From NCBI GenBank assembly GCA_037178675.1, contig JAYMGJ010000499.1:62001-126000 (forward strand): a stretch of 64,000 bases of DNA, given 5' to 3'. Both the position numbers and the translations under genes were made by a program. The stretch is from Scleroderma bovista. Lineage: Eukaryota > Basidiomycota > Agaricomycetes > Boletales > Sclerodermataceae. Position 1 is the stretch's first letter; the number at the start of each line of letters is the position of its first letter. Of this stretch, positions 7,959-64,000 are shown in pieces. The notes under the pieces were generated by a model. It saw only the letters and a program-made list of their open reading frames with translations. It searched no databases and was not told where the DNA came from.

Positions 7959-7968
7959 AGTCTGAAAT
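7959..7968 (-). other. Element A self-priming site
   Basis: On the minus strand, 2 nt after the LTR, the sequence ATTTCAGACT is the exact complement of AGTCTGAAAT in the same LTR (plus coordinates 8178-8187). That LTR segment begins about 33 nt downstream of the TATA box (plus 8213-8220), where transcription should start. This matches the Tf1 mechanism, in which the mRNA 5' end folds back to prime reverse transcription. No tRNA 3' end complement is visible here. Confidence 0.75.
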
Positions 7969-7970
7969 AC

Positions 7971-8571
7971 TGTCAAGTCCAGGTCTACTCCGGTAGGGGG
8001 TCTGGTCAAGTCCAGATGAAAGCAGACACAGGATGAGGGTAGATGCTGGACAAGATGTTAGTCTGGCTGGAGTTGGTGACCGATTGGATTCAATGACCAA
8101 GGACAACGAGCATTGATCCCTTGCATAGGTTCTGGTCAGGCAGAGACAGACAGAAGTAGGAGTAGTGACTATGGTTGATTTCAGACTAAGGAGTACAGGA
8201 CAGAGTACAGGGTACTTATACTATGGAGAACTAGGGTAGAGTATTTATGGTGACAAGTAAACATCCTAAAGGGCGGACAAGGAACGACCAGAGTCGGGAC
8301 TAGGTCAGGTCTGATGAAAATAAGTAAGGTCTGGAGAAAATACTATAAGGTAGAAGATATAAATGGAACATGGGGAACTCATGGTCCTACAGGGTTGATG
8401 GAGAGGTGAAGTAATGACTGGATAGAGACTAATACAAAGGGTTGCACTTAGCGGAAGGGTATGTATGTGTCCAGTACCAGAGTGATGCGCAGAGGTCTGG
8501 AGTTGAGCTGTAGTGCTGCGATGCGACCGGAGTAACCAGATAAGAGTCCAGAGTTGGACATAGTCTTGACA
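7971..8571 (-). mobile_element. Element A 5' LTR (601 bp)
   Basis: The termini are TGTCAAGTCC and GTCTTGACA on the plus strand. It belongs to the same family as the solo LTRs at 19340-19948 and 50498-51129. A TATA-like box is read on the minus strand. The outer flank is internal sequence of element B, so A inserted into B just downstream of B's gag. The 3' LTR of A is not in the window. Confidence 0.85.
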
Positions 8572-8725
8572 CAGGCCTCCATAGGTGCACAGTCAGGAAC
8601 AACACAACTCCCACTCTGTGTGGAGTCTTGGGAGTTGCTATCTATTTTTTTGCCTCAGTGAAGGCTGTCAGTTTGGCTTCCAACATGTTTGTGGTAGCAG
8701 CAGTAGCTGCCCTAGCTTTGGCTGC

Positions 8726-9958
8726 TCAAGAGCCTGACTTGGGGTAGTCCTTGGCCTTGTGGCCAGTTGCACCATAGAACATGCACAGATTCATGTCAAA
8801 CCTGTGCTTGCATTCCTCAGAGGTCAACTTGCCGTCCTTGTCGAGCTTGTCCAAAAGCTCAGTCTTGCCCAATTTGTTAGATTTCTGAGTTGGGGTCGAT
8901 GACAAAGAGGACTGGGCAGCATTGCCTGAGGGTTTACCCTTATCGGTTTTACCTGACTTGGTGTTGGGGCTGGTAGAGGTCTTGTTCTGACATGTGACCT
9001 CTTCCTTGTGTTCCCAATATTGGGCATTGATTTCCTGGATAAGGACATGAAGACCATTCAGAGTGCACAGTTTACTGATGTGGCTTATCTCATCCTTGAT
9101 TTGGTCGGGGAGACCTGTATAGAAGTGATGACATAGGGTGCCATTGCCATAGCCCCAAACCTGGGATGTGATGTGGTTGGAGTCAACCATGTATTGGTTG
9201 GCACAATGGTTTTCCTTCATGTGGAGGTGGTCGAGCTGATGCTCGGTGTCGGCAACAGGGTCATGGGGACTGAAGGTTGTTTGGAGTTTGATAACGAACT
9301 CCTCCTAGTTGGTCATCCAGATTGGACAATTGTGGGGGTCTCCTGCACCGAGTAGGTCTGGCTCAAACCATTCGAGAGCCATCCCCTTCAGATAGGACTG
9401 CATGAAGGTGACCTTGGTTCGGTCAGTGTGAAACACCTTCGGTTGGTCCTGGAAGTTGAGCTTGCACTGGACTAAAAATGTGCACAACTTCTTTGGATCG
9501 GTCCCATCGAAGGTGTCAGGTTTGCACACCTTGGTGTGAGATGAAGACTCAGATGAGTGCAAAGATTGCATGAGTCCGTCGATAGTGATGGAAAGGTTGT
9601 TAAAAATGACTAGACTGGCCTCTTCTGGGTCAGGGATGCCATCATCAGGGTTTGGGTCATCAGGGTTGTCGGGACCATTGGGACCATCACCACTGGGACC
9701 ACCATCACTGGGGCCATTGTCATTGGGATGGTCATCACCTAGGTCATTGCCGAGATCTTTGATGAAGGCCCCAGGTGGGTGATGCTGAGCAGGGGAGGAT
9801 CTCCGAGTGGAGAAGCCTTGGAAGTGGGAGATGGAGTCAGGTGAGTGCCTGAGGCTAGTTAGAGCACTCAAAGCAGCTGCCCGACAAGTGTTGGATGCTG
9901 AGGGTTCTGGGTTGTTTGCATGAGAAGTGCACGAGTGAGTTTGGATTGTCCTGAACAT
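8726..9958 (-). pseudogene. gag: Gypsy element B Gag (one nonsense codon)
   Basis: One frame runs from the ATG at 9958 (41 nt from the LTR) to 8726, with a single in-frame TAG at about 9305. An Asp/Gly/Pro-rich stretch lies near residues 70-110, then FDGTDPKKLCTFLVQ, QSYLKGMALEWFEPDLL and QVWGYGNGTLCHHFYTGLPD, i.e. the Gag core. At the zinc knuckle the motif reads CMFYGATGHKAKDY: the second and fourth ligands are Tyr where the sister gene at 4121 has Cys. Both are TGY to TAY changes, so RNA binding is probably lost. 8572-8725 is the post-gag sequence up to the element A insertion. Confidence 0.85.
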
Positions 9959-9986
9959 GGGTGATTGTGAATTCGTACAAGACTAG

Positions 9987-9997
9987 AGTTTGAATAT
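9987..9997 (-). other. Element B self-priming site
   Basis: Minus-strand ATATTCAAACT lies 2 nt inside the LTR. It is the exact 11-nt complement of AGTTTGAATAT in the same LTR (plus 10955-10965), itself about 35 nt downstream of the TATAAATA box at plus 10993-11000. Position and length are as in elements A, C and G, but the sequence is different. Confidence 0.75.
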
Positions 9998-10054
9998 ACT
10001 GTCAAGACCAGTTCTTCACCAATCTGATCTCTATGAGGGGTCTGGGAGTCAGGG

Positions 10055-10776
10055 CACTGCAAGCATTTCACAATGTTTCATGACAAAACATTGTAAAAAA
10101 ATAGAAGAAAGAGATACTCTTTTGTTTACAATTTTGTTCAACAAAAAAGACAAACATCATACAGCATTATTTTTGTCATTTTTGTATCAAGACATGATTG
10201 GAGATCATTTCTTATGTTGAGAGTATAAAATATTTAACCTTTTTTTTTTGCCTGTCCTTTGTAAAACAAATAAAGAAATAACAATGTAAATTTTCCCACA
10301 GCAAGCATTTTCAATTTTCTGTAGTGAAAAATTGAATCAAAAGATACTCTATTCCACAAAAATAAATGTTTAGAAAATATGCTATATATTTTTGGTCATA
10401 ACGCTCTAGCCAGCCAATCAGTATTCAGGAACAATCATGTTTCTTGAAGAAAAACCTATTGTTTTCTTTCAACATGTTTTTAGAAATAAGATACCATCTT
10501 ATTTCTAATAAAACATGCTGAAATTCTTGCTATGAGAAAAGTTACATTTTCTTTTCTTTATTTGTTTTTCAAGGAACAGGCAGAAGAAAAAGGTTAAATT
10601 TTTTATAGTTCTAACATAAGAGATTATCTCAAATGATGTTTTGGCAAAGAAAATGACAAAATGATGCTGTATGATATTTGTGTTTTTTGTTAAACAAAAT
10701 TGTAAATAAAAAAGTATCTCTTTCTTCTATATTTTTATAATGTTTTGTCATAAAACATTGAGAAATGCTTGCAGTG
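10055..10776. mobile_element. CACTG-type inverted-repeat element, copy 2 (722 bp)
   Basis: It begins CACTGCAAGC and ends GCTTGCAGTG, with inverted arms of about 300 bp. The flanks are GGG on both sides. The uninterrupted LTR at 53156-53170 shows the empty site, so the 3-bp duplication is confirmed by comparison. It has no coding capacity. The centre is inverted relative to copy 1. Confidence 0.9.
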
Positions 10777-11211
10777 GGGGTTGTTCTAGCAGTAAGACCA
10801 ATGTGCTACGTAGCATAGTCGCACTTCCTGAGTAATAGGAAGGCTGAGTGAGGGTTATACAGAGAGTCCAAGTTAGATCGGTCTACGACCAAGTGCTTGC
10901 ACGAGGCAGAGTTGGAGAGTGCGAAGAGAAAACAGAGGAGAAGTATCTTATTTGATATTCAAACTGAAGCTACAACAGACTGAGTGTCTAAGTATTTATA
11001 CTGAGTAGAACAGATGAGGCAATGTACAGGAAGTCAAGATTACCAACGAACGATGAGCACAGTCGCGCTGTGCACTGAGTAAGTATGGTAAGTGCGATAA
11101 CCGGATTACCGATAGGTATCATATTAGTGATGCAACAGGACGGGAACATATAGTAACTGGAAACGAGAAAGGAAACATATTAGGTAATCGTACAGAGAGA
11201 CAGAATGGACA

Positions 11212-15840: not shown

Positions 15841-15874
15841 TTAAATATACTACCAGTCTGTCACATCCATGCCA

Positions 15875-16000: not shown

Positions 16001-16139
16001 AACTCCTACTCTGTTCCTCCGGCCTGTCCGGCCCACTTCTGTCATACCTCCAGGTACATACCCTGTTTCCTTCCTGTCACTTACTTGTCACCCTGTTGCT
16101 ACGTACTCCTTCCATGTGTTTCCTCCTCTGGTAGTAATA

Positions 16140-16640
16140 GGGTATTAAAAATGTGTAGTAAAAGTGTACCCAAAGTGTAGTACAAAGTGTATCCAAAAAG
16201 TGTACTGAAAGTGTAGTAAAATGTATAGTAAAGGGGTAGTAAAAGTGTACCAAAAATGTGTAGTCAAAGTGTAATAAAAGTGTATCAAATATGTGTAGTA
16301 AAAGTGTAGTAAAGTGTACCAAAATGTATAGTAAAAATGTATTAAAAAAGTATAGTCAAAGTCTAGTACAAGTGTACCAACAAAGTGTAGTAAAATGTAG
16401 TAGAAGAGTACCAAATAAGTGTGGTATCAATTAGGATGTGTTGTGTTGTATTTGTGTGATAGTGTTGATTACCAAAAATGTGTAGTATTGATTAGCAAGT
16501 GTTGTATTGTGTTGGTGTGGTAGTGTTGATTACCAAAAATGCATAGTAGTTGTGTTGTGTTTGTAGTGTAGTGTTGATTGCCAAAAATGTATAGTACAAT
16601 TGTTGTGTAGCAAAAGTGTAGTCCCAGTTGGTAGTTGTCA
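16140..16640 (+). repeat. AGTAAAAGTGTACC-type degenerate array
   Basis: There is low-complexity repetition of GTGTAGTAAAAGTGTACC from 16145 to 16420, followed by a related GTGTTGATTACCAAAAATG array. The same array occurs in reverse complement at 36290-36880 with the same order of sub-blocks. Translations rich in His, Phe and Tyr are not genes. Confidence 0.8.
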
Positions 16641-18211: not shown

Positions 18212-18501
18212 TGTTAGTTTTGGTGATTTTCACCTCTTCTTATGACTTCATTGCTTACTATCATGGTCTACCCTACTCTTTACTTGTTTCCTTTACTTGT
18301 TTAGATTTGTTTACCCAGAAGCACACATACCCTGTAGAGTCCAGTGTTTTTCCTCTTCAGTTACTCACACTAGACTCTAGGTGCTGTATACCTTTCCATA
18401 ACTGTCTAAATCATTAGTTACTCACACTGGACTCTAGTCTGAATCTTATCTAAGCAACTCAGCAGCACTTTGTATGCTTCCAGCAAGTTTTGACTTGAAC
18501 A
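18212..18501 (+). mobile_element. Solo LTR of family E (290 bp)
   Basis: It begins TGTTAGTTTTGG and ends GACTTGAACA, flanked by GCATG at 18207-18211 and 18502-18506. This copy defines the family ends. Others lie at 20130 (minus), 37988, 38482 (minus) and 44436. Confidence 0.9.
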
Positions 18502-19339
18502 GCATGTACAGTGGTGGTGGTAGCAGTTATGGTAGTACTGGTGGTGAGGTTTGTTAGCGCTCATGATAAGGGAATGTAATATACAAGGTGGTTAGTGGTT
18601 GTGGAGAAAAACCAGTGATGAAGTCAGCATAATGCAGCACTTGATCAGATACAATTGGATGTATTTGGATGGCCAATGGATGCAGGTGTCCAGGGTAATC
18701 AAAGATTGAGAGCCAGTGACTCAGTGTACTAGACAATCATGATGGGAGCATTGGACTCACCAGTGGTTATGCTAGTGAAGATTGGTTGATGCAGGTGCTC
18801 AGAGCATAGATGATAACAAGGGTGCAGATATGGATAACCCAGGAACTCATTATGTGATGGGTACAGATGTTGATTGCATGCTGTGAAGTGGCCAACTCAG
18901 ATCATCCTCATAAATCATCAGAAGGTGCCCCCTAATGTTCTGGCACTTGCTGCCTAATGCCTTTATTATACATTTGGCTATGGATAATCAGCTTACTATC
19001 CTTGAGATACTACAAATGGTCAATTTCATACTGTAGCCAAATTGAAGAATTCTGTATTGCAATCATAATTACACTGTAATCTACACATGGGTTGCATGCA
19101 CCAATACTGTCCATTGTTGTAGTGTGGTATCATTGTCATCCATTAGCATTGTTGTGGTTGTGTAGATACTGGCACTGAGGTCATTGATACTGATCATTGT
19201 TGTTGTTACATTGCAGCAAACAAGCAAGCTGGCACTGTTGACAAGGGAGTCAGTTTGGTTGCGATCATGGCCAAACATGCAAACACAAGTAATATATTGG
19301 CTACTTTCTATTGTCAACATCTACACAGCTGATGGTGAT
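18502..19339. other. No gene seen
   Basis: This is the continuation of the GTGGT-rich stretch, then AT-balanced DNA without recognisable domains. It is the target of the family A solo LTR at 19340. Confidence 0.45.
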
Positions 19340-22533: not shown

Positions 22534-23187
22534 TTGTCTTAGGTCTATTGTCAAGGTTGAAAAGTCTTCTCTGGTCCTCTCTATGTCCTCTGAGCCCTCT
22601 GCTTATGGTTCCTTCCTCCCAAACCTCTGTCATGTCCATCTTCCTCTGTTGTTTGTCTCACATTCCTGAATCCATTGAATTTGATACTCTATCCACTTTC
22701 CTACTTTCAGATGGTATCCTCCAGCACCATGACAACTATATCCCCACTTTAGAGTGCTATTAGAAAGAAGAACCTTCTCTTATACTTTCCCAGAACAGAG
22801 CTCATCAGGGAAGCCCATGATTGTGCTTCAGTGGCACTAGAACACATGCATTAAACCTTAGTTTATGGTGACCCCCCACAAAGCCCTTACCAATCACTCA
22901 CCAATCCTTGACAAATTCTGCTTATTCCCTTCCCTTTTTGTACTTTAATGTTGTGTCTCCCCATGTATTCAAACCCCTAGGCTCAGCCTAGTGATAAGAG
23001 AGCCCAATACCACAAATTCCCTCTCTATTCCACTCTGTCTGGATATATCAGACAGTTGTGAGGTTTAAATACCTGGGGGGGCACAGCATTAAAGTACAAA
23101 AAGAGATGGAAATAAGTAGAATTTGTCAAGGATTGATAAGGGATTGGTGAGAGCTTTGTAAGGGGTTTGTAAGCAATTAGTAAGCAA

Positions 23188-23818
23188 GAGATAAGCAGAA
23201 ATGAGTAAGCATAGAGAGTATGAATAAGCTGCTAAGTAAAGGAATGAGTAAGCTGCATGACATGATTGATTGGTAAGAGAGTGAGTCATCATTGGTGGTG
23301 ATACAGGGCAAATATAGAGACAAATGGAAAAGATGAGTACATACTGTAAACAGACAGTGAACACATGGACACAATCAGATCATAGGGTACAGGGTGATCA
23401 AATGTCAAAGTAAGACAACAATGATGACAGTGACCAGTGCCAACAGCACAGACACAAGCATGTGGACAATAATGACAATAACAATGACAACAGCATGTCC
23501 ATACCTGATCAATGAAGGTGATGATGATGAAACATGTGTGGCAAATGCCACTGCGACACACCAACAACAACAATGGCAGTACATCACTGTCATGACTGTG
23601 ACACCTGATCACCCTGTACCCTATGATCTGATTGTGTCCATGTGTTCACTGTCTGTTTACAGTATGTACTCATCTTTTCCATTTGTCTCTATATTTGCCC
23701 TGTATCACCACCAATGATGACTCACTCTCTTACCAATCAATCATGTCATGCAGCTTACTCATTCCTTTACTTAGCAGCTTATTCATACTCTCTATGCTTA
23801 CTCATTTCTGCTTATCTC
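23188..23818. repeat. Perfect 213-bp inverted repeat with 205-bp spacer
   Basis: The left arm 23188-23400 is the exact reverse complement of the right arm 23606-23818: I find no mismatch over 213 bp. The arm is a composite, the tail of unit D joined to the 3' part of a family B LTR (GGTGATACAGGGC). The spacer 23401-23605 holds ACAACAATGATGACAG-like low-complexity DNA. Open frames on both strands share an identical C-terminus only because of the palindrome. Confidence 0.95.
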
Positions 23819-24005
23819 GTGATGATGACAATGAGTGCCGTAGCCCACCACCACAGCATCATGCGTGACAACAACAATGATGTCAAGTTCCATGGCCACC
23901 ACCACAGCATGCATGCATGTGTGATGATGACAACGAGTGCCGTGACCACCACCACAGCATGCATGCATGCACTATGACAACAACAACGAGTTCCCCACCA
24001 CCACA
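23819..24005 (+). repeat. CCACCACCACAGCATGCATG minisatellite
   Basis: Imperfect copies of a 50-60-bp unit containing GTGATGATGACAACGAGTGC and CCACCACCACAGC. There is no coding evidence. Confidence 0.7.
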
Positions 24006-24148: not shown

Positions 24149-24733
24149 TGTTGAGAAAGTAAGTGCTTAGTCATCAATAGCACGTGACTTTCCTAGAGCC
24201 TTGACACGTGATGTGTCTGGACTCGCCAACTTCCATGTGATACTTCTGTCACATGACTGGTTATCAAAGTACCAACTAACCGGAGTCATATCTCTTATCT
24301 ATGACATCATCAAGATAAGTAGAGATAACGTTCCTTCTAGAACGTTCCTATGAGGTCAATCTAGACCGTTTCTTATCTCTTATCTTACCTGTGACTCACT
24401 GTGGTGTTCTACGAGATTCTACGAGTTTCCACAGGATACTATGTTAGGAAGGTACTTATCTACCTATCCATTTATGGACTCTTATGGCCACTCTACTTTT
24501 ACATGGTCTGTGCACAGCTCAGACGTATAAATACCCTCATGCTCCGTTGTAGCAAAGTAGGATTTTACCCACCTGTTTTATCCTCTGTTGTTATCAACAA
24601 ACTCTCAAACCACCTTCGGTTATTACTCCAAGTTAGAACCATCTACCCAAGTGAGTTAAAGACTTCATATCATTTGTGTAGAGCCCGCTGCGTAGTGTCC
24701 ACGTTCTCCTATTGTGGACATTGCCTCCTGTTA
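24149..24733 (+). mobile_element. copia-3 5' LTR (585 bp)
   Basis: It begins TGTTGAGAAAG and ends CTCCTGTTA. The end is fixed by the target duplication and by the primer site that follows. The U3 carries two CACGTG E-boxes (24181-24186, 24205-24210) and at least six GATA-type sites (WGATAR on either strand) between 24261 and 24385. A possible splice donor, AAG/GTGAGT, lies at 24651 in the transcribed part. Confidence 0.95.
24526..24533 (+). promoter_or_regulatory. copia-3 LTR TATA box
   Basis: TATAAATA preceded by GACG. The only strong TATA match in the LTR, about 208 bp before its 3' end. The same box lies at 32846-32853 in the 3' LTR. Confidence 0.75.
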
Positions 24734-24745
24734 GGTTATGAGCCC
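24734..24745 (+). other. copia-3 primer-binding site (initiator tRNA-Met anticodon arm)
   Basis: GGTTATGAGCCC lies directly after the LTR. It is the exact complement of the anticodon stem-loop of initiator tRNA-Met (GGGCTCATAACC, anticodon CAT). It does not match the tRNA 3' end used by most retroelements. Priming by a 5' half-tRNA is known for Drosophila copia and yeast Ty5. Confidence 0.88.
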
Positions 24746-24795
24746 CGTCTAGGCGAACTCCTGTGACGTCGTTATTCTCGTCGGCCAACAAGAAG

Positions 24796-27179: not shown

Positions 27180-27180
27180 A

Positions 27181-45255: not shown

Positions 45256-45257
45256 TC

Positions 45258-45268
45258 TGAGCTCGAAT
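45258..45268 (+). other. Element G self-priming site
   Basis: TGAGCTCGAAT lies 2 nt after the LTR. It is the exact 11-nt complement of ATTCGAGCTCA at 45153-45163 in the LTR, 37 nt downstream of the TATA box. Same geometry as families A, B and C. No fit to a tRNA 3' end. Confidence 0.8.
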
Positions 45269-45449
45269 CTATAACATCTACATGCTCTACTACATGCTCT
45301 CCTAGCCTTATAAGGAAACTATACCTGAACTCCAGGGTTAAGGAGCTTCCTTTTCACACCTTGTATTTCATTCACAGCCAGCCTTTAGTGCCATTCTCAT
45401 AGTGCTTTGATATTGGGAGTTTTTAGCACCATATCCTTTATATACTGTA

Positions 45450-47279
45450 CACCAGCCCGGGGTTGTGCCTGGATGCCTCTTGTACCTCAACCACTACCTT
45501 CCCCTTTGGGACAGGCCTCCACCACACCCAAGCACCAGTGTTTTCCCTCATCACCATGCACGATCTGTCTCTCAGAGATTGGAAAGTGCTACCATGCCTT
45601 TCCCAGAGGCACCTTTCACTCTTGATTTGCTCCCCCTACAGTCCCCCGCTCGGTTCTCCAACACGTTGATGCTCACCCTTTCTTCTGGTCCTGGACCACA
45701 AAGGCTGGCCCTAACATCAGCAAATCATTCGCTGTCCCCACTGTCCTGACCTCATGTCCAAAGGACAGTCCTAAGGCTGTCCTGTGGATAGTCTCTATTT
45801 TCCATGCATTCAAATCCCAGCTCACCCTCCAGGTGCTAGACCAGGTGACGGGTAGGGTCCTCTCCACATATGTCAAGCTTTATCAAAACAACATGCTGAT
45901 GCACCTGCGTGCTCAGCTGGCCTGCCTTCATGCGGGCAAACTGTCTCCCTCTGCCACCCCCCCTCGTGCCGCCCCCCAGTCAGCTGTGCCCAAATCCCCC
46001 CAAATCCCCCTTAATGTCATAGCAGAGCTCCAAAGGGAGGTCATGGCCCTCCGGCTCTTGCACAAGGCATCCACTATGCCCCCCCTTCCTCACGTACTGC
46101 CCCCACGGTGGTGCCCCCTCATCCTCCCTTCTCTTCTGCTGCCTCCTCTATGTCCATAGTACAGGAGGGAGTTGCCCACCCAGATCACTAGTGGCTGCAG
46201 GCAATCATTGACAACCAGTACTGCCCACCAACATTCAAATACATTGACTCCTCTATGGTCCCAACCTATCCTCTTGTCATCCCCAAGGACATACAACAGG
46301 TCTTGCAGGTGATCTATGAAGTGGACATCCAGTTTGTGGGTTTCAACTCTAACAGTGACCTCTGTGTTGCCATCTGGTCCCCTGCCAAGCTGATCATCGC
46401 AGCAGTTGTTGTCCAGGTGGGTGCTCTCCCTCTGCCCCCCACCTATTAGCCCATGAGGCCCCTACCCTCCCCCTCCCCCTTCTTTCCTGCCCAGCTCCAT
46501 GGTTCCCTTGATCACATAGCACTCAGGGGGCGGTGTATACCCTCCATAGCCCATGTGGCTAGAAATCAGACTCAGTTGTTTGTGCATAGGTACAGTAGAC
46601 ACATCACATGTGTAGGAAGTGGAGTGTGATATGGGGATGATTCCCCGAGTCACTATAATACCTATTGAAAAAAAAAAAGGTTGTGCCTGGTGTCTGAAGG
46701 TCGGTGCCCGTTCAAGAGTTGTTCATAGCCACAAGGTGATTGAGACATAGTTACTTCATAATTCCTGCATCCGTGCAGAGGTAGACCTGTGATCTGCAGC
46801 CACTAGCCATTACTCTGCATAGCTGTGCCACTGCCCTGACCCAGCAAGAGCAACAGGCACACAAAATCTTACACTTAGTTTAGTGGAACACCTATGAGGA
46901 TCTAGTCTCATATAGCTCTACACCTACCTTACCCCATATAGTTAGCCACCATACCTTACCAGTTCCCTTGTCAGCTTGTCAAAGCACAACAGGAGCGCTT
47001 GGCAATCATCTACAGTCCTCACTCTGTCACAAGTGCTGAAGCACAAACAAGGGAGTTGGCAGTTGACAAAGAGCATCAGTTCACCTACACCATTGCCGCC
47101 TACAGTCACCTTGTCAGCAACTTCAAAATCCAAGTCTTCCTTGGCCTCCACCATTCCTTCCTGTCCTGCCCCTTCCAGACCTCCCTCTCGCTTGCTGCTG
47201 CACATTCTGGTCCTCCTGTCTCTGACCAGTTCAGAAAAGACCTACCTCTTACTCCTGTCTCCACCCATACTAGTTCAGG
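45450..47279 (+). pseudogene. Coding-like leader between primer site and gag of element G
   Basis: Several protein-like stretches lie upstream of gag. Around 45650-46100: VLQHVDAHPFFWSWTTKAG, VLWIVSIFHAFKSQLTLQVL and VIAELQREVMALRLL. At 46190-46410: WLQAIIDNQYCPPTFKYIDS and SNSDLCVAIWSPAKL, ending at a possible donor CAG/GTGGGT. At 46976-47130: QQERLAIIYSPHSVTSAEAQ, just after a TTCCCTTGTCAG acceptor. These could be exons of one accessory or captured gene, now with frameshifts and at least one stop. I recognise no family. Standard Tf1-like elements start gag close to the LTR, so this segment is extra. Confidence 0.4.
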
Positions 47280-48652
47280 ATGGCAGACCCTCTCCAGGTG
47301 CTCCTTGCACAACTCATCCAGGGTCAGATCAATCTTCAGAACAATATCACAGTCCTTACAGCTGCACAGCCTGGACCACCACTGCCATCGCACAAGAAGG
47401 TGGTCACAGATCCCAGCTCTTTCAATGGTTCTCCCACAAAGTTCCATGAGTAGTGGAGTAAGCTCAAGGTCTGGATTGAGATCTCAATGCAGGGAGCCAA
47501 TGATGCAACAGTGGCAGCCACTGTCTATTCTTGGCTCACAGGCCCAAAGGCTGGTCGGTGGGCTCAGGTCTGCCTTGATTAGTGCATGGTGGCCACAGCC
47601 ACCCTTGCAGCTGCTCCACCACTTGCCCCAGGAGCAGTACCTCCACTGCCAGCATGGCCCACCAGGGCACAACTCAAGGCAGAAATAGAGGGGTTCTTCC
47701 TCTTGGAAAACAACCAGGAATGAGCAAGAGTCCAGCTTTTGCATCTTCGTCAAGACCCTCGTCAGTTTATCAATGATTTCTTAGTGCAGTTCGAAGTGCT
47801 TAAGGTTCAGGGTCAGTGCATGATGATTATGCAAAAGACCTCCTCAAAAGAGCACTGCAGAGGAAACTTTTGGAGCAAATTTACATTCAAAATATGCATA
47901 GAGAAACTTATGCCCAACTAAGCATGTTGGCTAGGGAAATAGGGAGAGCACAGGAGCTCTTCCTAATCAACACACTGTTACGGACCAACTTTTATCTTAT
48001 CTAATCTACGGTTAGATAGCGTTTATCTTATCTTAGTGTACAGCCTCTATCTTATCTACCTAGTCTAGACCTGTACCTCGTGCTGTACACGCTGCCACCC
48101 TTGACATCATTACGCATAGCCTTAGCTCCACAGTGATGTCATTACATAGCCTTCTGCCTGCACGGAGCCTCATGGATAGCCTCGCGTAGCCCTCATGTAT
48201 AGTAGTATATATACCGTGCAATCCAGCACCCAGAGGCTCCCCATTCGAGCTCATCTTGGGTCTTTGCTCTAGATACTCGCATCCTATCCTCTCAGAGTCT
48301 TAGCGTGTGGTCGGATCCTTGGTGTTTGCCTAGGGTCGTCTCACACACAGTCACAGTCACTGACCTGGTATTTCCAGGGCCAAAATTATTCATCATCTTC
48401 AGCCTTGGGCAGTAGCATGCCCATGGACATCAGTGCTGCTGACACTACTCAGCAAAGGGGTAAAGGGGCCCAATGTTACAACTGCCAACTCTTTGGCCAT
48501 ATTGCACAAGAGTGCACCAAACTTTGTTGCCCTCGTCATGGGCAACAACAAGCATGGGTAACACAAGCTCAACCAGAGGATGACCAGCTAAATGCAGTTC
48601 GGGGAATGATGTTTGCAAAGATGCAAGCATTCTTCCATGATTTAAAAGATTA
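47280..48652 (+). pseudogene. gag: Element G Gag, with three stops and a solo LTR inside
   Basis: From the ATG at 47280: MADPLQVLLAQLIQGQINLQ, then DPSSFNGSPTKFHE followed by TAG, and WSKLKVWIEISMQG, VYSWLTGPKAGRWAQ, EIEGFFLLENNQE, TGA, ARVQLLHLRQDP and FINDFLVQFEVLK. This is the Retrotrans_gag capsid core. After the solo LTR the zinc knuckle CYNCQLFGHIAQEC (48474-48515, C-x2-C-x4-H-x4-C) is intact. Stops at about 47449, 47578 and 47726 look like TGG/CAG to TAG and TGG to TGA changes. Confidence 0.8.
47976..48343 (+). mobile_element. Solo family G LTR inside element G gag (368 bp)
   Basis: It begins TGTTACGGACC and ends GGGTCGTCTCA, with CACAC at 47971-47975 and 48344-48348. It is closer in appearance to an undecayed LTR than the host element's own LTRs (it keeps several CpGs), so it is the younger insertion. 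Confidence 0.92.
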
Positions 48653-49068
48653 AAGAGTGAGGACATGTTGGGCACCCTTGCTCTCAAATCTTCTTTGGAC
48701 ACAGCTGTATGTATTTTGGACTATAGACTATCTCACACTACTACTCCTGTGGTGCAGAAAATATTTAAGTATCACATTGCCTTGTTATGTAGTAAAATTA
48801 GTAAAACCTACAAAAAAGTCTCTTCTGTAGTCTCTCCTGTTTCTGTTTCTCCTGGCTGCTACTCTGTTCTGTCTATTGATACCATGGACTGTGATATGGA
48901 CTGTTCTGTACCATCTAAGGGGGTCCCTGCAAAGAGCTCGGCACTGGATGTAAAATTGAGCATGCTTAATTTCTGATTGAATAATTTTTTTTTTCTTTGA
49001 CATCTAAGGAACTGGAAAGTCCTGCCAGCAACTTGGAAGTTTCTATGGACTTATGAAGGTCCTTCACA
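48653..49068 (+). other. Element G gag-protease linker, degenerate
   Basis: Ser/Val/Pro-rich broken frames between the zinc knuckle and protease. Nothing identifiable beyond its position. Confidence 0.5.
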
Positions 49069-49590
49069 ATGGAACATGAAGTGACAGTACTGGTCTGCAT
49101 CCGTGGACCCCTTAATACTATTGAGGTAGACGCTCTGCTAGACAGTGGTGCTATTGGTTGCTTTGTTGACAAGAGTTGGGCTCTTGATTGACACCTACAG
49201 CTATCTAAGCTGGTGAAGCCCATTCCAGTGCTTAATGTAGATGGCACCAGGAATCAGGAAGGTGACATCACGCATTATATATTGTTCACAATCAGTATTG
49301 GAAAGCATGCTGAAAAACTATGGTGTACTGTCACTTGACTTGGAAAGGTTCTGCTTATCCTCGGCCACACTTGGCTTCAGAAGCACAATCCCAATATAGA
49401 TTGAGTAACTGGCAAAGTTAATTTAACTTGGTGTCCCTCAAAGTGCAAGTCACTTTTGGAAACACACTTTGCTAAATTATTACAAGAAAATGAATCTTAG
49501 AAAACTTGAGTTTAAGCTTTGAAGACCCACAAGTCAAAGGTCGCTATTGATGAGTCAACTCTAGAAGAAGCCCAGAAGCAAGTACCTAAG
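49069..49590 (+). pseudogene. pol: Element G protease
   Basis: After ATG at 49069: TVLVCIRGPLNTIEVDALLD then SGAIGCFVDKSW, an aspartic protease active site (LLDSGA, Asp at 49141). A TGA follows at 49189, then the recognisable ILGHTWLQKHNPNID flap-side block (family pattern LGxxWLxxHNPxID). Degenerate but in order with gag and RT. Confidence 0.8.
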
Positions 49591-50497
49591 GAATACTAGA
49601 CATATTTAGTAAAAAGTCATTGGAGTGTATGCCACTAAGGAAACCTTGGGATCATGGATCCTGCTCTCTGTTGATGAACAAAAGGAAGTTGAATCCTTCC
49701 TAGATGATCAGCTGGAAAAAGGATATATTTGGCCTTCTATTAGTCAACAGATGTCACTGGTCTTCTTTATCCTGAAAAAGGACAGCAAAAAACACATGGT
49801 ACAGGATTACCAATATGTAAACGACTGGACAATAAAAAATAACTATCCGCTGCCACTTATCTCTCAGCTTGTTGACAAGCTCAAGGGTTGTAAGCTCTTC
49901 ATGAAGATGGATCTTCATTGGGGCTATAACAATGTGAGGATTTGCAAAGGTGATGAGTGGAAAGCTGTGTTTGTAATGCACAAAGGGGCTTTTGAGCTGT
50001 TAGTTATGTATTTTGGTCTCTGTAACTCACCCACAACATTCCAGAAGATGATGAATGAGATCTTCCATATGTTGGATGTCTACATGGTGTACATCGATGA
50101 CCTTATGATATTTACAAATATGGATGATCAGGAAAAGTATGATAGAATTGTGCTAGAAGTTTTGAAATGGTTATATGATAATGATCTTTACGTCAAACCC
50201 GAGAAGTGTTGCTTCAGAGTCACCAAAGTTGACTTCCTCAGAATGATTGTCTCACATGATGAGATCAAAATGAACCCTGAAAAGGTTAACACTGTTTTGA
50301 AGTGGCCAGAGCCAACAAAAGTTAAGCAGGTCTGTGCATTCTTAGGCCTTGGCAACTTCTATAGACGGTTTATTAAGGATTATGTGATCATGGCTAGGCC
50401 CATGACAGACCTTACCTGTAAAGACACTGTATTTAACTTCAGAGAGAAGGAACACACTGCATTTGAGGCTTTGAAAGCTGCCTTTACTCATGCTCTG
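49591..50497 (+). pseudogene. pol: Element G reverse transcriptase
   Basis: A long open stretch with the Ty3/gypsy RT blocks: FLDDQLEKGYIWPSIS, VQDYQYVNDWTIKNNYPLPL, KMDLHWGYNNVRI, YFGLCNSPTTFQKMMN, VYIDDLMIF (YIDD, both catalytic Asp kept), CCFRVTKVDFLRMIVS and LGLGNFYRRFIKDY. The connection to RNase H is cut at 50497 by a family A solo LTR, and the frame resumes at 51135. The RT core itself shows no stop over about 290 codons. Confidence 0.92.
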
Positions 50498-51129
50498 TGT
50501 CAAATCCAGGTCCACTCCAGACAAAGTCTGGACGAAATCTGGTTAAGATCTTGAACGAGGGAGGGGCAGAGGTTGGCCTAGGCCAGGAATTGCTCAGGGG
50601 GGCAGGATAGACCAATTGGGTACAACAACAGAAGTCAAGTGTTGACCCCTTGCATGGATTCTGGTCAAGACAAGAGAGAGTAGGGAAGGGAGATACAGAG
50701 TGGGTGACTTAGTTGATTTCAGACTCAAGATACAGGACTGAGTACAGGACTTTATATATGGAGGCAGAACTAACCTGAGTATATACAGTGACAAGTAAAC
50801 AACCAGAAACCGGAACAAGGAAACGAGAGTGAAAGGAATAGGTCGGTAAAATAAACAGGGACAGGAAAATAACCAGGGAGTCAGGCTCAAAGCAGACATG
50901 GGGAACTGGAAGTATATAGGATCGATGGAACGGGTGCAGGAACAATGTGATAAGTGGAACTAAACCGGATTGGAAAGATGGATAGAGATGAGTACGGACT
51001 TAGCAGATACTATGTGTGTGAACCTAGTCCGGGACCAGGGATGAAGTGCAAGGGCCGGGATCGAGCTGCATAGCTGTGATGAAGCCAGAGTAACCAGGCG
51101 AGCAACCGGAACTGGTCATGGTCATGACA
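50498..51129 (-). mobile_element. Solo family A LTR inside element G pol (632 bp)
   Basis: It begins TGTCAAATCC and ends GGTCATGACA on the plus strand, with CTCTG at 50493-50497 and 51130-51134. It keeps ATTTCAGACT and the TATATAAA-type box of family A. Confidence 0.92.
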
Positions 51130-51134
51130 CTCTG

Positions 51135-52600
51135 GTACTTCAGTACCCTGATCAAGACCATGAATTCTGCCTTAAAACAGATGTGTCTGAGTTTGCCATT
51201 GGGGGAGTGATATCCGTAAAGTATGAAGACAGCGAATTCAGATCCATCACATACATGTCACATTTCATGACACCTCCTGAATGAAACTATCCTATTCATA
51301 ATAAAGAGATGCTGACCATCATAAAAGCAACTGAAGCCTGGCACCACTATCTTGAAGCCACTCCTTATGCTTTCAAGATTTATATGGATAGCAGATTCAG
51401 ACCTATATAAAGCACTGTCAAAAGTGCCAACAATCCAAAGTGTTGAATCAAAAGATTTCTGGAAGTCTTGTCCCTCTACCTACCCCTAGTGGCCCATGGC
51501 TTGATGTCACTATATTTTGTTAGATGGCTCATGCAGGGAACTAGCTCAGAGGCAAACTCAGTGTCTCATTTGGAACACTATCTGTATGATAACTAACCTA
51601 GCTCAGAGGCAAACTAATAAGTAGGTTAGTACTGAGTAAAAGAGAGTGGTGACTAGATGTCTTACCTCAGTGTCTCATTTGGAACACTGAGGTGAAAGAA
51701 ATCCTTGAGTGGATGAAAATACTCTGTGCTTACATAAGGATGCTTGATGCACAAATAAGGAAACTAACACAAGTCCTAAAGAATGGTAGTGACTGAGTAG
51801 GAATTTCAACACTATGGACTTTACCAAGATGCTGAAATCCCTCAGTTACAATTATATATTAGTGATTGTTGATCAGTTCTCCAAGGAGGTTGTGTTTGTG
51901 CCTTGTACAAAGGAGGAAACCTGGTTGCCTTGTCAACCATTGAGTTATTTAGAGACCATGTTTGGTGTCAGCACAGACTCCCATCTTCTGTTGTGTCTGA
52001 CCATGGATCAGTCTTTGTGAGCAACTTCCTGGGGGAGTTGTATAGACTTTTAGGCATGAAAAGGAAAATGTCTACAGCATTTCACCCTCAGACCGATGGG
52101 CAAACAGAGCAGTTGAACTGCGAAATTAATCAGTATCTCTGAACATATGTAAATGATCATCAGAACAAATGGACTAAATGGATGAAGATTGCCTAGTTTG
52201 TTTGGAACAACATGGTTTCAGAAGTTACTACTGATTCACTGTTTGGAATCACTTGAAGTTATTCCCCTAGGATGGGTGTAGAACCCATGGACTCAGTGGC
52301 CCCAGCAGCCAAGGACTTTACTGCTATATTTAATAAAGTCATTGAATCTTCTGAGAAGGCTAAACATAATATGAAGCTTCAGGCAGATAAGCACAGGAAC
52401 CCTGCCCTGAACTATGTTGTAGGGCAACAAGTTTGGCTTTCTACAGACAACCTTTGTATGTGAAATCACACTTCTAAGAAACTTACAGAGAAGTGGATTG
52501 GCCCCTATGAGGTCACTTGTGTTACCCTGAATGTGGTTGAGCTTAAGCTCTCAAAACCCCTTTGGATTCACCCAGTTGTGAATGTGTTGTGCTGCAGGTT
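51135..52600 (+). pseudogene. pol: Element G RNase H and integrase, with a deletion between
   Basis: RNase H: HEFCLKTDVSEFAIGGVIS, YPIHNKEMLTIIKATEAWHH and YLEATPYAFKIYMD. The sequence then jumps into the integrase zinc region (CQKCQQSKVLNQKISGSLVP, family C-x2-C), so the RNase H end and tether are deleted. Core: VIVDQFSKEVVF, LPSSVVSDHGSVFVSNFLGE and MSTAFHPQTDGQTEQLN (DDE with Asp and Glu visible), then DKHRNPALNYVVGQQVWLST. 51540-51800 is an out-of-place segment with internal duplications (AGCTCAGAGGCAAACT twice, TGTCTCATTTGGAACACT twice). Several stops. Confidence 0.85.
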
Positions 52601-52670
52601 AAACCTCATTTAGGTCCTCTTCTCAGTCAACCTGTCTCCCAGCCTGGCCCAGTGCATGTTTCTGAAGAAC

Positions 52671-52831
52671 ATGATGAGGAGTATAAAGTGGGCTATATTG
52701 TGGCTTCGTGTATTTATAAAAGGCAACTCCAATACCTAGTGCACTGGGAAGGATACGAAGAACACAAGAGAACTTGGGAACCCTCATCAAATTTAAAGAA
52801 TTCTCCTCTGGTAGTTGAGCACTTTTACTGA
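52671..52831 (+). pseudogene. pol: Element G chromodomain
   Basis: EEYKVGYIVASCIYKRQLQY, then LVHWEGYEEHKRTWEPSSNL and VVEHFY. The fold signature of chromoviral integrase tails is complete: two aromatic cage residues (Tyr and Trp), the second Trp, and the C-terminal helix. It would read methylated histone H3 and guide insertion into heterochromatin. Open in frame, although separated by stops from the integrase core. Confidence 0.88.
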
Positions 52832-52968
52832 GAAAACCCCTCAGCTTCTTGAAAACTTCATATGGCCCAAGTGGACTTTAAGTCGTTATTTAGTTGTATC
52901 CCTGAAAACCTTACAGTTTGCAACCCTTAGTTCTGCAGTCTGGAATCTTGCACCTGAGGGGGGAATGA

Positions 52969-53937
52969 TGTAACAGACTAACTTTTTATCTTATCTTAGT
53001 GTACAGCCGTCTCTTATCTACCTAGTCTAGACCAGTCCCGCATGCTGTACATGCTGCCACCCTTGATGTCATTCCACATAGTCTTAGCTCCACCATAACA
53101 TCATGTCAAGACTGGTTCTTCACCAATCTGATCTCTATGAGGGGTCAGGGGTTCAGGGGTTGGTCTAGCAGTAAGACCAAGATGCTACATAGCATAGTTG
53201 CACTTCCCGAGTAGCAGGAAGGCTGACCGAGGGTTATATGGAGAGTCTGAAGGTAAACAGTCAACAACCAAGTACTTGAACAAGACAGAGACAGAGAGTG
53301 CGAAGGGAGAACAGAGGAGAAGTATCTTATTCAATATTCGAACTGAAACTACAACAGACCAAGTATCTAGGTATTTATACTGAGTGGAACGGAAGAGGCG
53401 ATGTATGGGAAGTCAGGATTACCAATGAACGACGAGCGCAGTCGCGCTGCATGCTGAGTAAGTATGGTAAGTGCGATAACCGGATTACCAATAGGTATCA
53501 TATTAGTAAAGCAATGGGACGGGAACGTATAGTAACTGGAAACAAGAAAGAAAATATATTAGGTAATCATACAGAGAGATAGAACAGACAATGTGCTCAC
53601 TGATCGGTGGCGATACAGGACAGATAGAGAGAAATGAAAAAGGGAGTACATATTATAAATGGGCGGCGAACATGTGGATGCAATCAGACAATAGGGTACA
53701 GGGTGATCAGATGTCATGGTCGTGACACATCATTAACATAGCATTGCATAGTTGTATAGCCTCATGGATAGCCTTGTGTAGCCCTTGTGTAGAGTAGTAT
53801 ATATACAGTGCAATTCAGCACCCAGAGGCTCTCCATTTGAGCTCATCTTGGGTCTTTGCCCTAGCCTTTCAACTTCTATCCTCTCAGAGTCTCTGCATGT
53901 AGTAAAATCCTTGGTGTTTTCACCTAGGGTCATCTCA
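52969..53937 (+). mobile_element. Element G 3' LTR, interrupted by a family B solo LTR
   Basis: It begins TGTAACAGACTAAC at 52969 and ends GTCATCTCA at 53937. The pieces 52969-53103 and 53728-53937 match the 5' LTR. Removing 53104-53727 restores the AACATCATTAACATAGC junction seen at 45048. Confidence 0.92.
53104..53727 (-). mobile_element. Solo family B LTR (624 bp)
   Basis: It begins TGTCAAGACTGG and ends GGTCGTGACA, with CATCA at 53099-53103 and 53728-53732. This full-length copy supplies the empty sites for the CACTG element at 10055 and the C LTR at 11212. It retains ATATTCGAACT, one change from the element B pairing segment. Confidence 0.92.
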
Positions 53938-55350: not shown

Positions 55351-56257
55351 CTCACACTCATGCACATTGCAACAACAGCAACCATAGCAATGACCCCAGC
55401 ATCAGCATGCACATATGCTGTAGCACAACCACCACACCATCACTGGCATCACAATCCCAGCACAATTTTTCAGCAAAAAACATTGAAAAGAAATTCTCCT
55501 TGTTCTGGTCATAAATATTCTGAGTTTTAAAAAAAATTGATTTGGGCAATAAAATGATATTATGCATATAATGTTTATGGTCAGAAAAGGGAATGTTTAT
55601 TTAAGATAGTATTTAATAGAATATACATTATGACTATAAAATGTTTTTGTCAAGTATACATTGTATGTGATTTACAATTTCTTTTTACAAAACATTGTGG
55701 TTTTAAGCTCTCAATATAAGAAAAGTTACATTGTCTTTTCTTTATTTTGTTTTGCAAAAGACAGGCAGAAGAAAAAAGTCAAAAATTTTACTGCCTCAAA
55801 AGAAGAAATGGTCTCAAATCATATCTTGGCACAAAAATGACAAAGATAATGCTGTATAATATTTGTCTTTTTTGTTAAACAAAATTGTAAATAAAAGAGT
55901 ATCTCTTTCCTCTATTTTTTTACAATGTTTTGTGGTGAAACATTGAGAAATGCTTGCAGTGTCTATTGCTTACTATCATGATCTACCCTACTTACTACCA
56001 ACTTGTTTCAGCTTCAGCTGCATTGCAGTGCTAGATGTGCTCTTAACTTGTTTCCTTCCCTTGTTGTTTACATTTGTTTACCCAGAAGCACACATACCCT
56101 GTAGAGTCCAGTGTTTTTCCTCCTCAGTTACTCACACTGGACTATAGGTGCTGTATGCCTCTCCACAACTGTCTATATCATTAGATACTCACACTGGACT
56201 CTAGTCTGGATCTTATCAGAGCAGCTCAGCAGTATCCAGCAAGTTTTGGCTTAAACA

Positions 56258-56618
56258 GACTACATGCCTTGAAGACAAGGTGGTGCATGACTGATGAAAG
56301 GAGGCAATGTTGGGGATGGGTGCAGCATGGCAGCAATGCCTGAGGTGTCCATAAGGTGGGACTTGTGTGTGACTAACTTTTGTTACAGGGAGTCATTGAA
56401 CAATTCTGTTGCACTGCCAAGCTGCTAGGGTATACAAACCAGCATTCATTAACTCTTTACAGCTGCACACTTTGCAACATTTGCAACAGAGTCCAACCCA
56501 AGTTACACTAGCTTACAAGATATGATAATCAAATTTTGTCCATGTTCAGGGTGGAACAAGATTGATGCTGCCCAAAAAGAGCAAGACTTAGCAAGACTTG
56601 TGCCTCCTGTTGCACAGT
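56258..56618. other. No gene seen
   Basis: Unassigned sequence between the family E LTR and CACTG element copy 4. Confidence 0.5.
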
Positions 56619-58870
56619 CACTGCAAGCATTTGTGGATGTTTTGTGACAAAACATTGTAAAAAAATAGAATAAAGAGATACTCTTTTATTTGCAATTTTG
56701 TTTAACACAAAAGACAAATATTATACAGCATAATCTTTGTCATTTTTATCTCAAGACATGATTTGAGACTATTTCTTATGTCAGGGCAGTAAAAAGTTTA
56801 ATTTTTTTTTCTGCCTATCCTTTGCAAAACAAAATAAAGAAAACACAATATAACTTTCCTTGTATTTAATGACTAAAAACCATAATGTTCTGTGAAAAAA
56901 TATTGTGAATCACATACACTATATACTTAACAAAAAAAGCCTATAATCACAAGGTATATCCTAATAAATGCTACTCTAAATAAACATCCCTTGTTCTGGC
57001 CATAAACATTACATGCATAACATCATTTTATTGCACAAATCATTTTAAATAAAACTCAACATGTTTATGGCCAAAACATTACATGCATAACATCATTTTA
57101 TTGCACAAATCATCTTTAAAAAAACTCAACATGTTTATGGCCAAAACATGGAGAATGCATTTTCAATGTTTTTTGTTGAAAAATGATATGGATACCTGTG
57201 AGACCTGACTATCTAAACATGGACTGCCTCAAACATGGTGGTGAGGAAGACACCTAGGTAGCTAGTGGAATAGTGATTGTTGTCATGCTGGTGGGTGGGG
57301 CTGTTGACATTTGTCAACAGGGGTGGTGGCAGTGGTGGTGCTGGTGTCAGGTGTCATTGTTGTGCTGGTGCTGGAGGGACCATAGTTGTCATGCTGGTAG
57401 TGGGTAGGGCTGTTAAGTTGTCATTGCCTGGCTGGTGAGGCTTGTATATGCTGCAATACAATCATTTGTACCAAATATTGTTGCAGATGGAGGTGATGCT
57501 TACCCTCTGAAGAACCTCTGATGGATCTCCCCACAATGTTGTCAATCTTACTTGATAGACCCAATAGACTGGTGGGAGGGATGTGATACCCTCAGTGCAC
57601 CTTCCTCACAATGTTGATTGGGCCCAATAGACTTCTGTCAGGGGCTCTCAACCATTTCGGGAATTGGCATTGGAAGAGGGCATATATTAGGTACATTGTC
57701 AGGTACACAAAAATTATTATATCTAAAGACCATGGGAACACAAACAAACTGCTGCCAAAAGTGGTGCCATGCCACTGGTGTGTTACTGATCTTTCCTCAA
57801 GAGATCTGGGGGTCAGGTGTTGGCCTAGCATTAAGGCCAAGGTGCTATGTAGCATAGTTGTGCTTCCCAAAGATTAGAAAGGCTGAACAAATACTTAAGC
57901 ATGAGACTGAAGGGTATGGTCAAAGACTGACTTAGTATGAGTGCAGACACAGTGAGGGGAAAAGGCACATTACATATGGTAAGAGTTCCCAAGATTGATT
58001 TAGCCATTGGAATTAAAGCTCCATGAAAAACTCTAGCTGGGAGTTATTGATGCAACTCTGGATGGCAGTGGCCAGCCAACACCGCTATGACAAAAACCAA
58101 CTTATGTGTTAATGTCAATGGCTCAACCACCTGTGAGCATGATGGCAAGTGCCAACACTACTCACTACAGACAACACCACTACTGTCCATGGCTGTTGAT
58201 GTGGACAGCCTGACCACCACATGAGCATGCCAAGCATGAGTGCCACCACAGCTTATTGCTGATGACACCACTGCCCCAGCTATCAATAGAGTTCAGCACT
58301 ACGATGACCATTGACATCTTTCAGCCCTGAGTTATTGACATGTTAATACTAACTAGTTAATAACGTGGGAGTTTTTCATGGAGCCATAATTGGCATTGTC
58401 CTCATGGTGAAGTAATGAGTAATGACTACAACTTGCTAACTCTGATGAGAAGTATAGTATTCACAATCACACTCAGTTAGGGAGTGGTACAGGTCAACTC
58501 ATGGGTGTCACCAGTCCTGACAGAACCCATGATCTGGCCAGGTTGCCAGTTATCTATATCCACAATCATGGCTACATGCCCACACCACCAATACCATCAA
58601 TACCACATGTTACATCCACATCCACAGCCTTCTCCAGACAATTTTCAAATAACTCCAGATGTATTTCAGATTGAGCAGATACAGGACAAGCATAGACAAA
58701 AGTCTGGTAATACTCATTATGGGAGACTGATATTAGACATATTTTCCACACTATTTTTAGAAAGTCAGGTCTCACAGATATCCATATCAACACATGTGAT
58801 TTTTAAACTAAAAACATGAAAAATGCATTCTCCATGTTTTGGCCATAAACAGGACCATTAGTCATGTTAT
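56619..58870. mobile_element. CACTG-type inverted-repeat element, copy 4 (right end missing)
   Basis: It begins CACTGCAAGCATTTGTGG. The left arm runs past 57200 and includes CAACATGTTTATGGCC, which is duplicated in tandem at about 57058 and 57117. Part of the opposing arm is at about 58765-58860 (GTCAGGTCTCACAGATATCC, TCCATGTTTTGGCC), after which the outer arm is lost. The interior (57200-58760) is GTGGT/GTCATTG-rich and contains a family B LTR fragment at about 57790-57900. No transposase frame recognised. Confidence 0.75.
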
Positions 58871-61970: not shown

Positions 61971-62280
61971 TGACCGGAGTTAGCACACAGGGCACAGGAG
62001 GTGACCGGAGTTAGTGCGCAACCACAGGAGTTGACCGGAGTTAGTGCGCAGCCACAGGAGATGAGAAGAGTTGGTGCACTGGGCACAGAAGGCAACTAGA
62101 AGTAGTATGCAGGTCACAGGAGGTGACCGGAGTTAGTGCACAATCACAGGAGTTGACCGGAGTTAGTGCGCAGCCACAAGGAGTGACCGGAGTTAGTGCA
62201 CAACTACAGGAGTTGACAGGAGTTGGTGTGCAACCACAAGACACAACCGGAGTTAGTGTGTGGTGCACAAGAGATGACTG
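61971..62280 (+). repeat. 30-bp tandem repeat, about ten units
   Basis: The unit is TGACCGGAGTTAGTGCGCAG followed by CCACAGGAGT. Being a multiple of three, it leaves frames open on both strands. Repeats are contiguous with no spacers, so it is a minisatellite, not a CRISPR array. Confidence 0.9.
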
Positions 62281-62756
62281 GACAAGGTCTAGATACCACA
62301 GACAAGAGTGTCAATGGTGCAAAGAGCGACTAGAAAGGACAGACACAAAGGACAGACAGAAGGACAGACACAAGACTGTCAAGAGCAAAGGTAGGGAGCA
62401 AAGACTAGTGGATGGCCTGCTGCATAGGTCCGGAGTTGGCTGGAGTTTCCACAGAGCGGAAAGAGTTCTGAGTGCAAGGAGTGACATTTTGACTAAAGGG
62501 AGCCCAAGTGAACAGTAGGGCGACCGGAGTTTTGAGCTAAAACATCGGAGTTGGTTATAGAGTGTTCCAAAGCACTGCGGAGTACTTCTAGTGGAGTCAG
62601 GGAGCCGGAGTGGACCAAGATGCCGGAGTACCAAGGTGTTAGACACCCAAGTAGCTGCAGAGAGACAGGATATGATGTCCGAGATTGCTGAAGGCAGTGA
62701 GGTGGACGAGGACAGCAGATCCAATGCCTAGAGATGGCTACAGAGTGTAGACAGTG

Positions 62757-63125
62757 ATTTCCGGATAGAGCGGGAAGCCGGAAATTCAAAAGTCCGGAGT
62801 AGCCAAGAGTCTTGGTAGACAAAAGGAGGCAAGAGGCAGACAGAGGCAACAGACACAATGCCAAAGAACGGCTGCAGAGTGCGGACAAGGTTTCCAGGTG
62901 GAGCGAAGAGTTTCCCAGTCCCGGAGAAGGGACAACAAGCCGGAAAACCAAAAGTCCGGAGTTGACGAGGGTCAGAGCAGCCAAAGGAAGGCAAAGGTAG
63001 GTGCAGGCAGCAGAGCTGGTGACAAGCCAAGGCAACAGAGTGTAGACAAATACTTCCGAGTCAGCCAGAGAGTTTCCGAGTCCAAAGAAAGGACAAGAGG
63101 GCGGAAATTCAAAAGTCCGGACCAA
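62757..63125 (+). repeat. 162-bp tandem repeat, three partial units
   Basis: The block GGAAATTCAAAAGTCCGG (with variants) ends near 62797, 62959 and 63120, a spacing of 161-162 bp. The flanking sequence (TTTCCGAGTC, GGACAA) repeats with it. Confidence 0.75.
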
Positions 63126-63442
63126 ACAAGGGTTTGTAAAGCCGGAGTAAGATAGGGGTGACCGGAGTTGATGCCCTAAAGAAGAGCAGTCATTGGAAAT
63201 AAAGTACAAAGGACTTAGAGCAAAGTCCAGGAGTAGTTGCCAGTCAATGCGGGTGACCGGAGATGGTCAGAGCAGAAAGTCCGGGTAGGACAAGTCATAG
63301 AGCGCGATGCTCAGGAGTACAGAGGCCAAGATTGGCCGGACATGAGAGGACATGAGTGACAGACAAAGAGTGTGAGTTTATGCATACTGTCAGAGACAGT
63401 AAGTTCAGAGCCATGGCGGATGAATTTGCACGAGTTTTGGTG

Positions 63443-63453
63443 AGATCAAATCT
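63443..63453 (-). other. Family C self-priming site
   Basis: Minus-strand AGATTTGATCT lies 2 nt from the LTR. It is the exact complement of AGATCAAATCT in the LTR (plus 63911-63921 reads AGATTTGATCT), about 36 nt downstream of the minus-strand TATATAA box (plus 63951-63957). Confidence 0.75.
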
Positions 63454-63455
63454 AC

Positions 63456-64000
63456 TGTCAAAACCGGTTCTCCTCAAAGATCTTACTAGGAGGTCCAGAG
63501 GTGCAGGGAACTAATGAGAAGGTAAGTCCAGACACTAGTAGGTGCTAGTTAGTGCGGAGAGTCAAGTCCGGGTCAAATGAACAAAGTCCGGGCACTAGAG
63601 GAGCACAGGGAGTAAGTCCGGGTTTTTGCGGAGTAAGTCCGGACTGCGGGAAAGTGGTCTGGAGTTGAGCGCAGCTTGTCTGGAGCAAAGGACATCCCAG
63701 AGGTGGGATAAGTCCTGAGAGGTCTAGCGTCGAGTCTGGGACAGAGGTGGCTTTTGCCCTCGTGCAAGTAGGAGACTTGCTAGGATCAGACATAGGACCA
63801 AGGGGACGAGATAGGACGGAGGCCGGAGTTGGCCGGAGTTCAGGAGTTCAGATGAACAGATGGATTAGGAGAGCATAATGGGTAGTACAGAGTGGGGAGT
63901 ATCTTAGTCGAGATTTGATCTAAGGATCTACTAGGCCGGAGTACGGTAGTTTATATAGTAATGAGAACTAGGGTGAGTACATACGGTGACAAGTAAACAC
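63456..64000 (-). mobile_element. Family C 5' LTR, running off the window
   Basis: It begins TGTCAAAACCGG and follows the solo C LTR at 11212 base by base with few differences, keeping many CpGs that are TpG there. The outer end lies beyond 64000. Confidence 0.9.

Follow-up and report, generated by a model that had tools for sequence, protein, structure and literature searches.

Positions 62,001–126,000 of contig JAYMGJ010000499.1 from Scleroderma bovista (assembly GCA_037178675.1, 51.8 Mb in 850 contigs) form a stretch of 64,000 nucleotides (nt), hereafter the window, in which long terminal repeat (LTR) elements are abundant. Four families of these, termed A, B, C and G, are very probably Ty3/gypsy elements of the Tf1/sushi type, in which reverse transcription would be started with the element's own mRNA. 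Self-priming in all four families, as proposed by the initial annotation, is supported by most of the sequence-based predictions tested: a complementary primer and primer-binding site (PBS), the offset of the latter by 2 nt from the LTR end, the placement of the former 33–37 nt past the TATA box, the retention of the pair in genome copies, the presence of SH3 and chromodomain regions in A and B, and a second duplex next to the PBS.

In families A, B, C and in the copy G1 of family G, the PBS is the exact reverse complement of a segment of the element's own LTR, over 10, 11, 11 and 11 nt, respectively, and in each family it starts 2 nt past the LTR end. The ends were set by 3' or solo LTR copies inside the window, and all LTRs terminate with CA (TTGACA in A, B and C, TTTCA or TCTCA in G). 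On the minus strand, the self-primer of A (AGTCTGAAAT, 8178–8187, the predicted nt 1–10 of the mRNA) pairs with the PBS at 7959–7968, that of B (AGTTTGAATAT, 10955–10965) with 9987–9997, and that of C (AGATCAAATCT, 63911–63921) with 63443–63453; on the plus strand, the self-primer of G1 (ATTCGAGCTCA, 45153–45163) pairs with 45258–45268. The second G copy, G2 (minus strand), exhibits 10 of 11 pairs between ATTCAAGCTCT (33748–33758) and the PBS AGAGCTCGAAT (33637–33647), with one A·C mismatch. The distance from the first T of TATA to the first primer base is 33 nt in A, 35 in B, 34 or 36 in C, 33, 35 or 37 in G1 and 34, 36 or 38 in G2, according to the TATA word from which one counts. The letters and coordinates originally given for A, B, C and G1, and the claim that 10–11 nt located 2 nt past the 5' LTR complement the LTR at TATA+33 to +37, proved right. 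For G2, the last base is indeed altered in both partners relative to G1, but it is not the only difference, as the internal A·C mismatch was overlooked.

The same pairing would be seen if the two segments acted in transcription, packaging or circularisation of the RNA instead of priming; the primer overlaps the predicted transcription start, and long-range pairing in leader RNA is common among retroelements. We consider such a role very improbable, because one partner lies exactly at the position required of a PBS and, in the stretches read, nothing else at the LTR end could be recognised as a candidate PBS. Very improbable is also the binding of a tRNA or tRNA half to these sites, with the LTR match being incidental. 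Such priming would have a precedent in a copia element of the window (approximately 24149–33053, LTRs 99.5% identical), whose PBS TTATGAGCCCCG (24736–24747, plus strand) resembles a half-tRNA-iMet (initiator methionine) site and is placed at the same distance, 2 nt past an LTR end fixed by the flanking repeat GGTGT. The complement of TTATGAGCCCCG falls, except for one end base, within GGGGCTCATAACCC, which has two occurrences close together in the genome (none for the reversed control) and probably represents the tRNA-iMet anticodon arm. However, the PBSs of A, B, C and G start with ATT, ATA, AGA or TGA, and none with the TGG typical of tRNA 3'-end complements, a comparison confined to these first letters; moreover, each PBS matches the predicted transcript start in its own LTR at a fixed place, and an incidental match would not be repeated across four families. 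The copia element also exhibits an open Pol frame of 1367 amino acids (aa) and an extra open stretch (25463–27179) before Gag with no Pfam match.

The complementarity of primer and PBS in A, B, C and G1 exceeds chance. The LTR from the primer to its end was dinucleotide-shuffled 2000 times and matched against the 30 nt after the LTR, with a match allowed anywhere. The real run length was reached in 13 shuffles for A (copy L036), 2 for B (copy L038), 0 for C, 1 for G1 and 2 for the G copy L053, and the real runs all begin at primer nt 1 and match position +2. A scan for 10- or 11-mers at TATA+28 to +42 with the reverse complement after CA and 2 nt was carried out on 356,746 nt (the window and 78 further stretches, L001–L078), a non-random sample gathered mostly via queries with A, C, G or the reverse transcriptase (RT). 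It returned 80 rows for 10-mers (1 for the reversed word and 3 for the complement only, taken as controls) and 52 rows for 11-mers (0 and 2, respectively). The four families account for 72 of the 80 rows, some of them doubled because of overlapping TATA words or because the A copy of the window is also contained in L001, and the other 8 come from L007 and L019 and are long inverted repeats. In the rows that have CA 2 nt upstream, no self-primed families besides A, B, C and G were found. Chance, or an artefact of decayed repeat-rich sequence, to which the 13 of 2000 shuffles that match the A run might appeal, is a negligible explanation in view of four families with fixed position and spacing, many genome copies, and a scan in which 1 and 3 control rows stand against 80.

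The pairs are well kept in other copies of the elements in the genome. For family A, 40 distinct copies were collected, 30 of them genome loci (including the window copy) and 10 from the 20 places read among the genome matches to RT and integrase, with L036 as the reference. The primer is identical in 39 of the 40. Where the PBS is aligned in full (29 copies), 28 pair 10/10 and L010 has one change; in the remaining 11 the alignment does not take in the whole PBS, which is what 3' or solo LTRs should show. The A primer is among the best-conserved windows of the R (repeat) and U5 (unique 5') regions, with 3 of 230 windows scoring as high, itself included. For family B, the genome was searched with a pattern in which a single base of the primer and a single base of the PBS could vary and all other letters were exact, so that copies altered elsewhere in the pair are missed. 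It identified 46 places (0 for the reversed control), of which 37 (obtained by subtraction) have primer C and PBS G, 1 has T and A, 2 have T and G (a U·G pair) and 6 have C and A, i.e. 38 of 46 are fully paired. Among six B copies compared directly, four pair 11/11 and two (L031 and L033) 10/11. Copies of C and G were taken from the 40 matches listed for each family. All four C copies that reach the PBS, the window's own excluded, pair 11/11. Of the listed G copies, 20 were examined, chosen for reaching or nearly reaching the query end beyond the PBS, and 15 of them pair 11/11 (L052 and L063 were scored by eye), with a G·U wobble in L061 and L068 and a C·A or A·C mismatch in L052, L059 and L067. 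In 11 of the 20 RT/integrase stretches LTR pairs are 94–100% identical, and thus A and B include young copies.

A second complementarity was found in all families: within 40 nt 3' of the PBS lies a run that would pair with the LTR of its own family downstream of the primer. In A the run GAACCTACGCAAG pairs with CTTGTGTGGGTTC (as read in copy L036; the halves in the window are 7942–7954 next to the PBS and 8120–8132 in the LTR), in B CTCGTGCAAG with CTTGTACGAG (as read in L038; 9972–9981 and 10896–10905, with the last letter of the PBS-side half giving a C·A mismatch in the window copy) and in C TTGCACGAG with CTCGTGCAA (63426–63434 and 63759–63767), all on the minus strand. In G1, on the plus strand, CATGTAGTA pairs with TACTACATG (45288–45296 and 45214–45222), and in G2 TGTGGTAG pairs with CTACCACG. 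The runs were scored against 200 shuffles of the body of the own LTR (the score was picked after the shuffle and duplex-energy results were known), yielding z values of 4.8 for A, 2.3 for B, 2.6 for C and 2.8 for G1, compared to −1.7 to 1.3 for PBS flanks set against the LTRs of other families. Within G, the G1 flank on the G2 LTR reached 3.3 and the G2 flank on the G1 LTR −0.5. As read from the segments, one A–T pair of the G1 duplex becomes G–C in G2, with both sides changed. In family A, the half 3' of the PBS is invariant in 29 of 29 copies, the LTR half ranks near the top in conservation (7 of 227 windows, counting its own, score as high), and both of its variants retain a standard pair. 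This second duplex resembles another of the duplexes that make up the Tf1/sushi 'pretzel'. Nested folding also assigned a high predicted probability to the primer–PBS helix in A, C and G1. Between the sister families B and C, the halves of the second duplex (63426–63434, 63759–63767 and 10896–10905) are nearly mutual reverse complements, as if their sides had been swapped.

Several results weigh against self-priming as read here. The complementarities and their conservation are observed in the sequence, and the transcription start, the RNA fold, the cleavage and the priming are inferred. The z value of the second duplex in G2 is only 1.4; one mismatch occurs in the second duplex of the B copies L031, L033 and that of the window; and the duplex energies taken alone are weak (p = 0.12 for A in L036, 0.18 for A in the window, 0.04 for B, 0.22 for C, 0.10 for G1 and 0.18 for G2). 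A duplex formed by the flank upstream of the PBS did not rise above shuffles in the families tested. When B is folded as a nested structure, the primer helix is absent, an alternative being better by 5.3 kcal/mol. Finally, covariation within B at the CpG of the pair is not significant (Fisher p = 0.13 with the window copy added to the T/A cell, and 0.40 without it). Double changes within B were considered as evidence of covariation and rejected, since they are inseparable from CpG decay.

If the families are self-primed, transcription would begin at an A residue 33–37 nt past TATA, and nt 1–10 or 1–11 of the mRNA would pair with the PBS 2 nt past the 5' LTR, with the second duplex, in which the segment immediately 3' of the PBS is paired with R/U5, probably steadying the fold in a manner comparable to the Tf1 'pretzel'. 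By analogy to Tf1 (PMC7175516), RNase H would then cut the mRNA after nt 10–11, and the short RNA would prime the minus strand into U5. If the new PBS were copied from the primer, this would preserve their match during the divergence of the families, a step for which the B data are no proof.

Elements A and B encode Gag and Pol, the latter with protease, RT, RNase H, the zinc-binding and core domains of integrase, a Tf2-1-like SH3 domain and a chromodomain (25.1 bits in A, at the cut-off of 25.1, and 24.5 bits in B, just under it). Their Pol proteins are 74–85% identical, and an LTR core that spans both TATA and the primer is common to A, B and C (66–78% identity over 92–109 columns). The sequences of the pairs had been described as unrelated between families; this does not hold for A, B and C, given the common LTR core and the Pol identity, while the second part of the statement, that pairing, offset and position relative to TATA are kept, does. 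The segments AGTCTGAAAT, AGTTCGAATAT (in B) and AGATCAAATCT seem to have diverged from a single segment, and each is matched by its PBS. It is conceivable, if rather speculative, that the four families have private primer–PBS pairs and second duplexes by which each RNA primes mainly itself, that new specificities emerge once an altered primer has been copied into the daughter PBS, and that A, B and C represent snapshots of such primer switches.

Family G is distant: its RT is 43% identical to that of A, and the chromodomain/SH3 region of G1 shows just 27–29% identity to those of A and B. G1 is a decayed element (44885–53937, plus strand, TATTG on both flanks) that is split up by two LTRs, one solo from G and one of B type. 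What is left of its Pol follows the usual order, namely protease, RT, RNase H, integrase and a weak chromodomain region. The solo G LTR inserted in G1 (47976–48343) is flanked by CACAC on both sides. The B LTR harbours, between its primer and its end, a fold-back repeat some 720 nt long (10055–10776), with inverted-arm relatives at 338–1060, 44473–44884 and 55501–57078. Among the 120 of 7958 matches listed for the A Pol, the best named relative comes from Pisolithus tinctorius (79% identity across the full query), and others are named from Trametes and Leucocoprinus, with one entry labelled as a Chlamydiales bin. A scan of IMG/VR for relatives found none, and literature searches returned no report recognisable as families A, B, C or G.

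The self-priming mechanism is already known from Tf1, and families A, B, C and G are new examples. The first 11 nt of the Tf1 RNA are complementary to the PBS (PMC7175516), both PBS flanks also pair with the LTR downstream of the primer in the 'pretzel', and self-priming is a common feature of Tf1/sushi elements (PMC10085805). Tf1 and Tf2 of Schizosaccharomyces pombe are similar to families A, B, C and G in the complementarity of the RNA start to the PBS, the PBS-flank duplex and the type of element, carrying a chromodomain. They differ in that Tf1 has a single ORF (open reading frame; PMC10085805) and the A copy L036 two neighbouring ones (Gag and Pol), in the length of the primer (11 nt in Tf1, 10 nt in A), and in the PBS-upstream duplex of the 'pretzel', which was not found in A, B, C or G. 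For Tj1 and Tosmo of other fission yeasts a self-primer and PBS were likewise proposed from sequence (PMC4600332, PMC10085805); Tj1 has been shown to transpose, whereas A, B, C and G are known as sequences alone. Among basidiomycetes, self-priming was proposed for Tcn1 of Cryptococcus neoformans, with the priming of Tcn2–5 regarded as possibly novel (PMC7175516), and marY1 of Tricholoma matsutake is listed among the Tf1/sushi-related clades (PMC6317226). In plants, 12% of elements were predicted to be self-primed by a similar test (at least 10 bp starting 0–5 bp past the LTR), including Tcn1-lineage chromoviruses and TAR, which come from other hosts and, in the case of TAR, from a copia lineage (PMC6317226). 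Self-priming is not seen in all relatives: in SM-Tcn1 of a spikemoss, neither kind of primer site was found (PMC2864245). Our analysis extends the Tf1-type self-priming signature, together with one further 'pretzel'-like duplex, to several families coexisting in one fungus. As the primers of the related families A, B and C differ and each PBS matches, their comparison can ask how a self-primer evolves while its binding site is retained.

The window contains also other repeats. A tRNA-like match at 38327–38399 (tRNA-Tyr with anticodon ata according to ARAGORN; Rfam score 35.7 bits) lies beside dispersed repeats (18231–18513, 38023–38697 and 56016–56280) and is perhaps part of a tRNA-derived short interspersed nuclear element (SINE). 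Short ACTACACTTTT-like units form imperfect arrays at 36350–36900 and 16131–16596, on opposite strands, and an inverted repeat at 23185–23821 has 227-nt arms, 98% complementary, with 183 nt between them.

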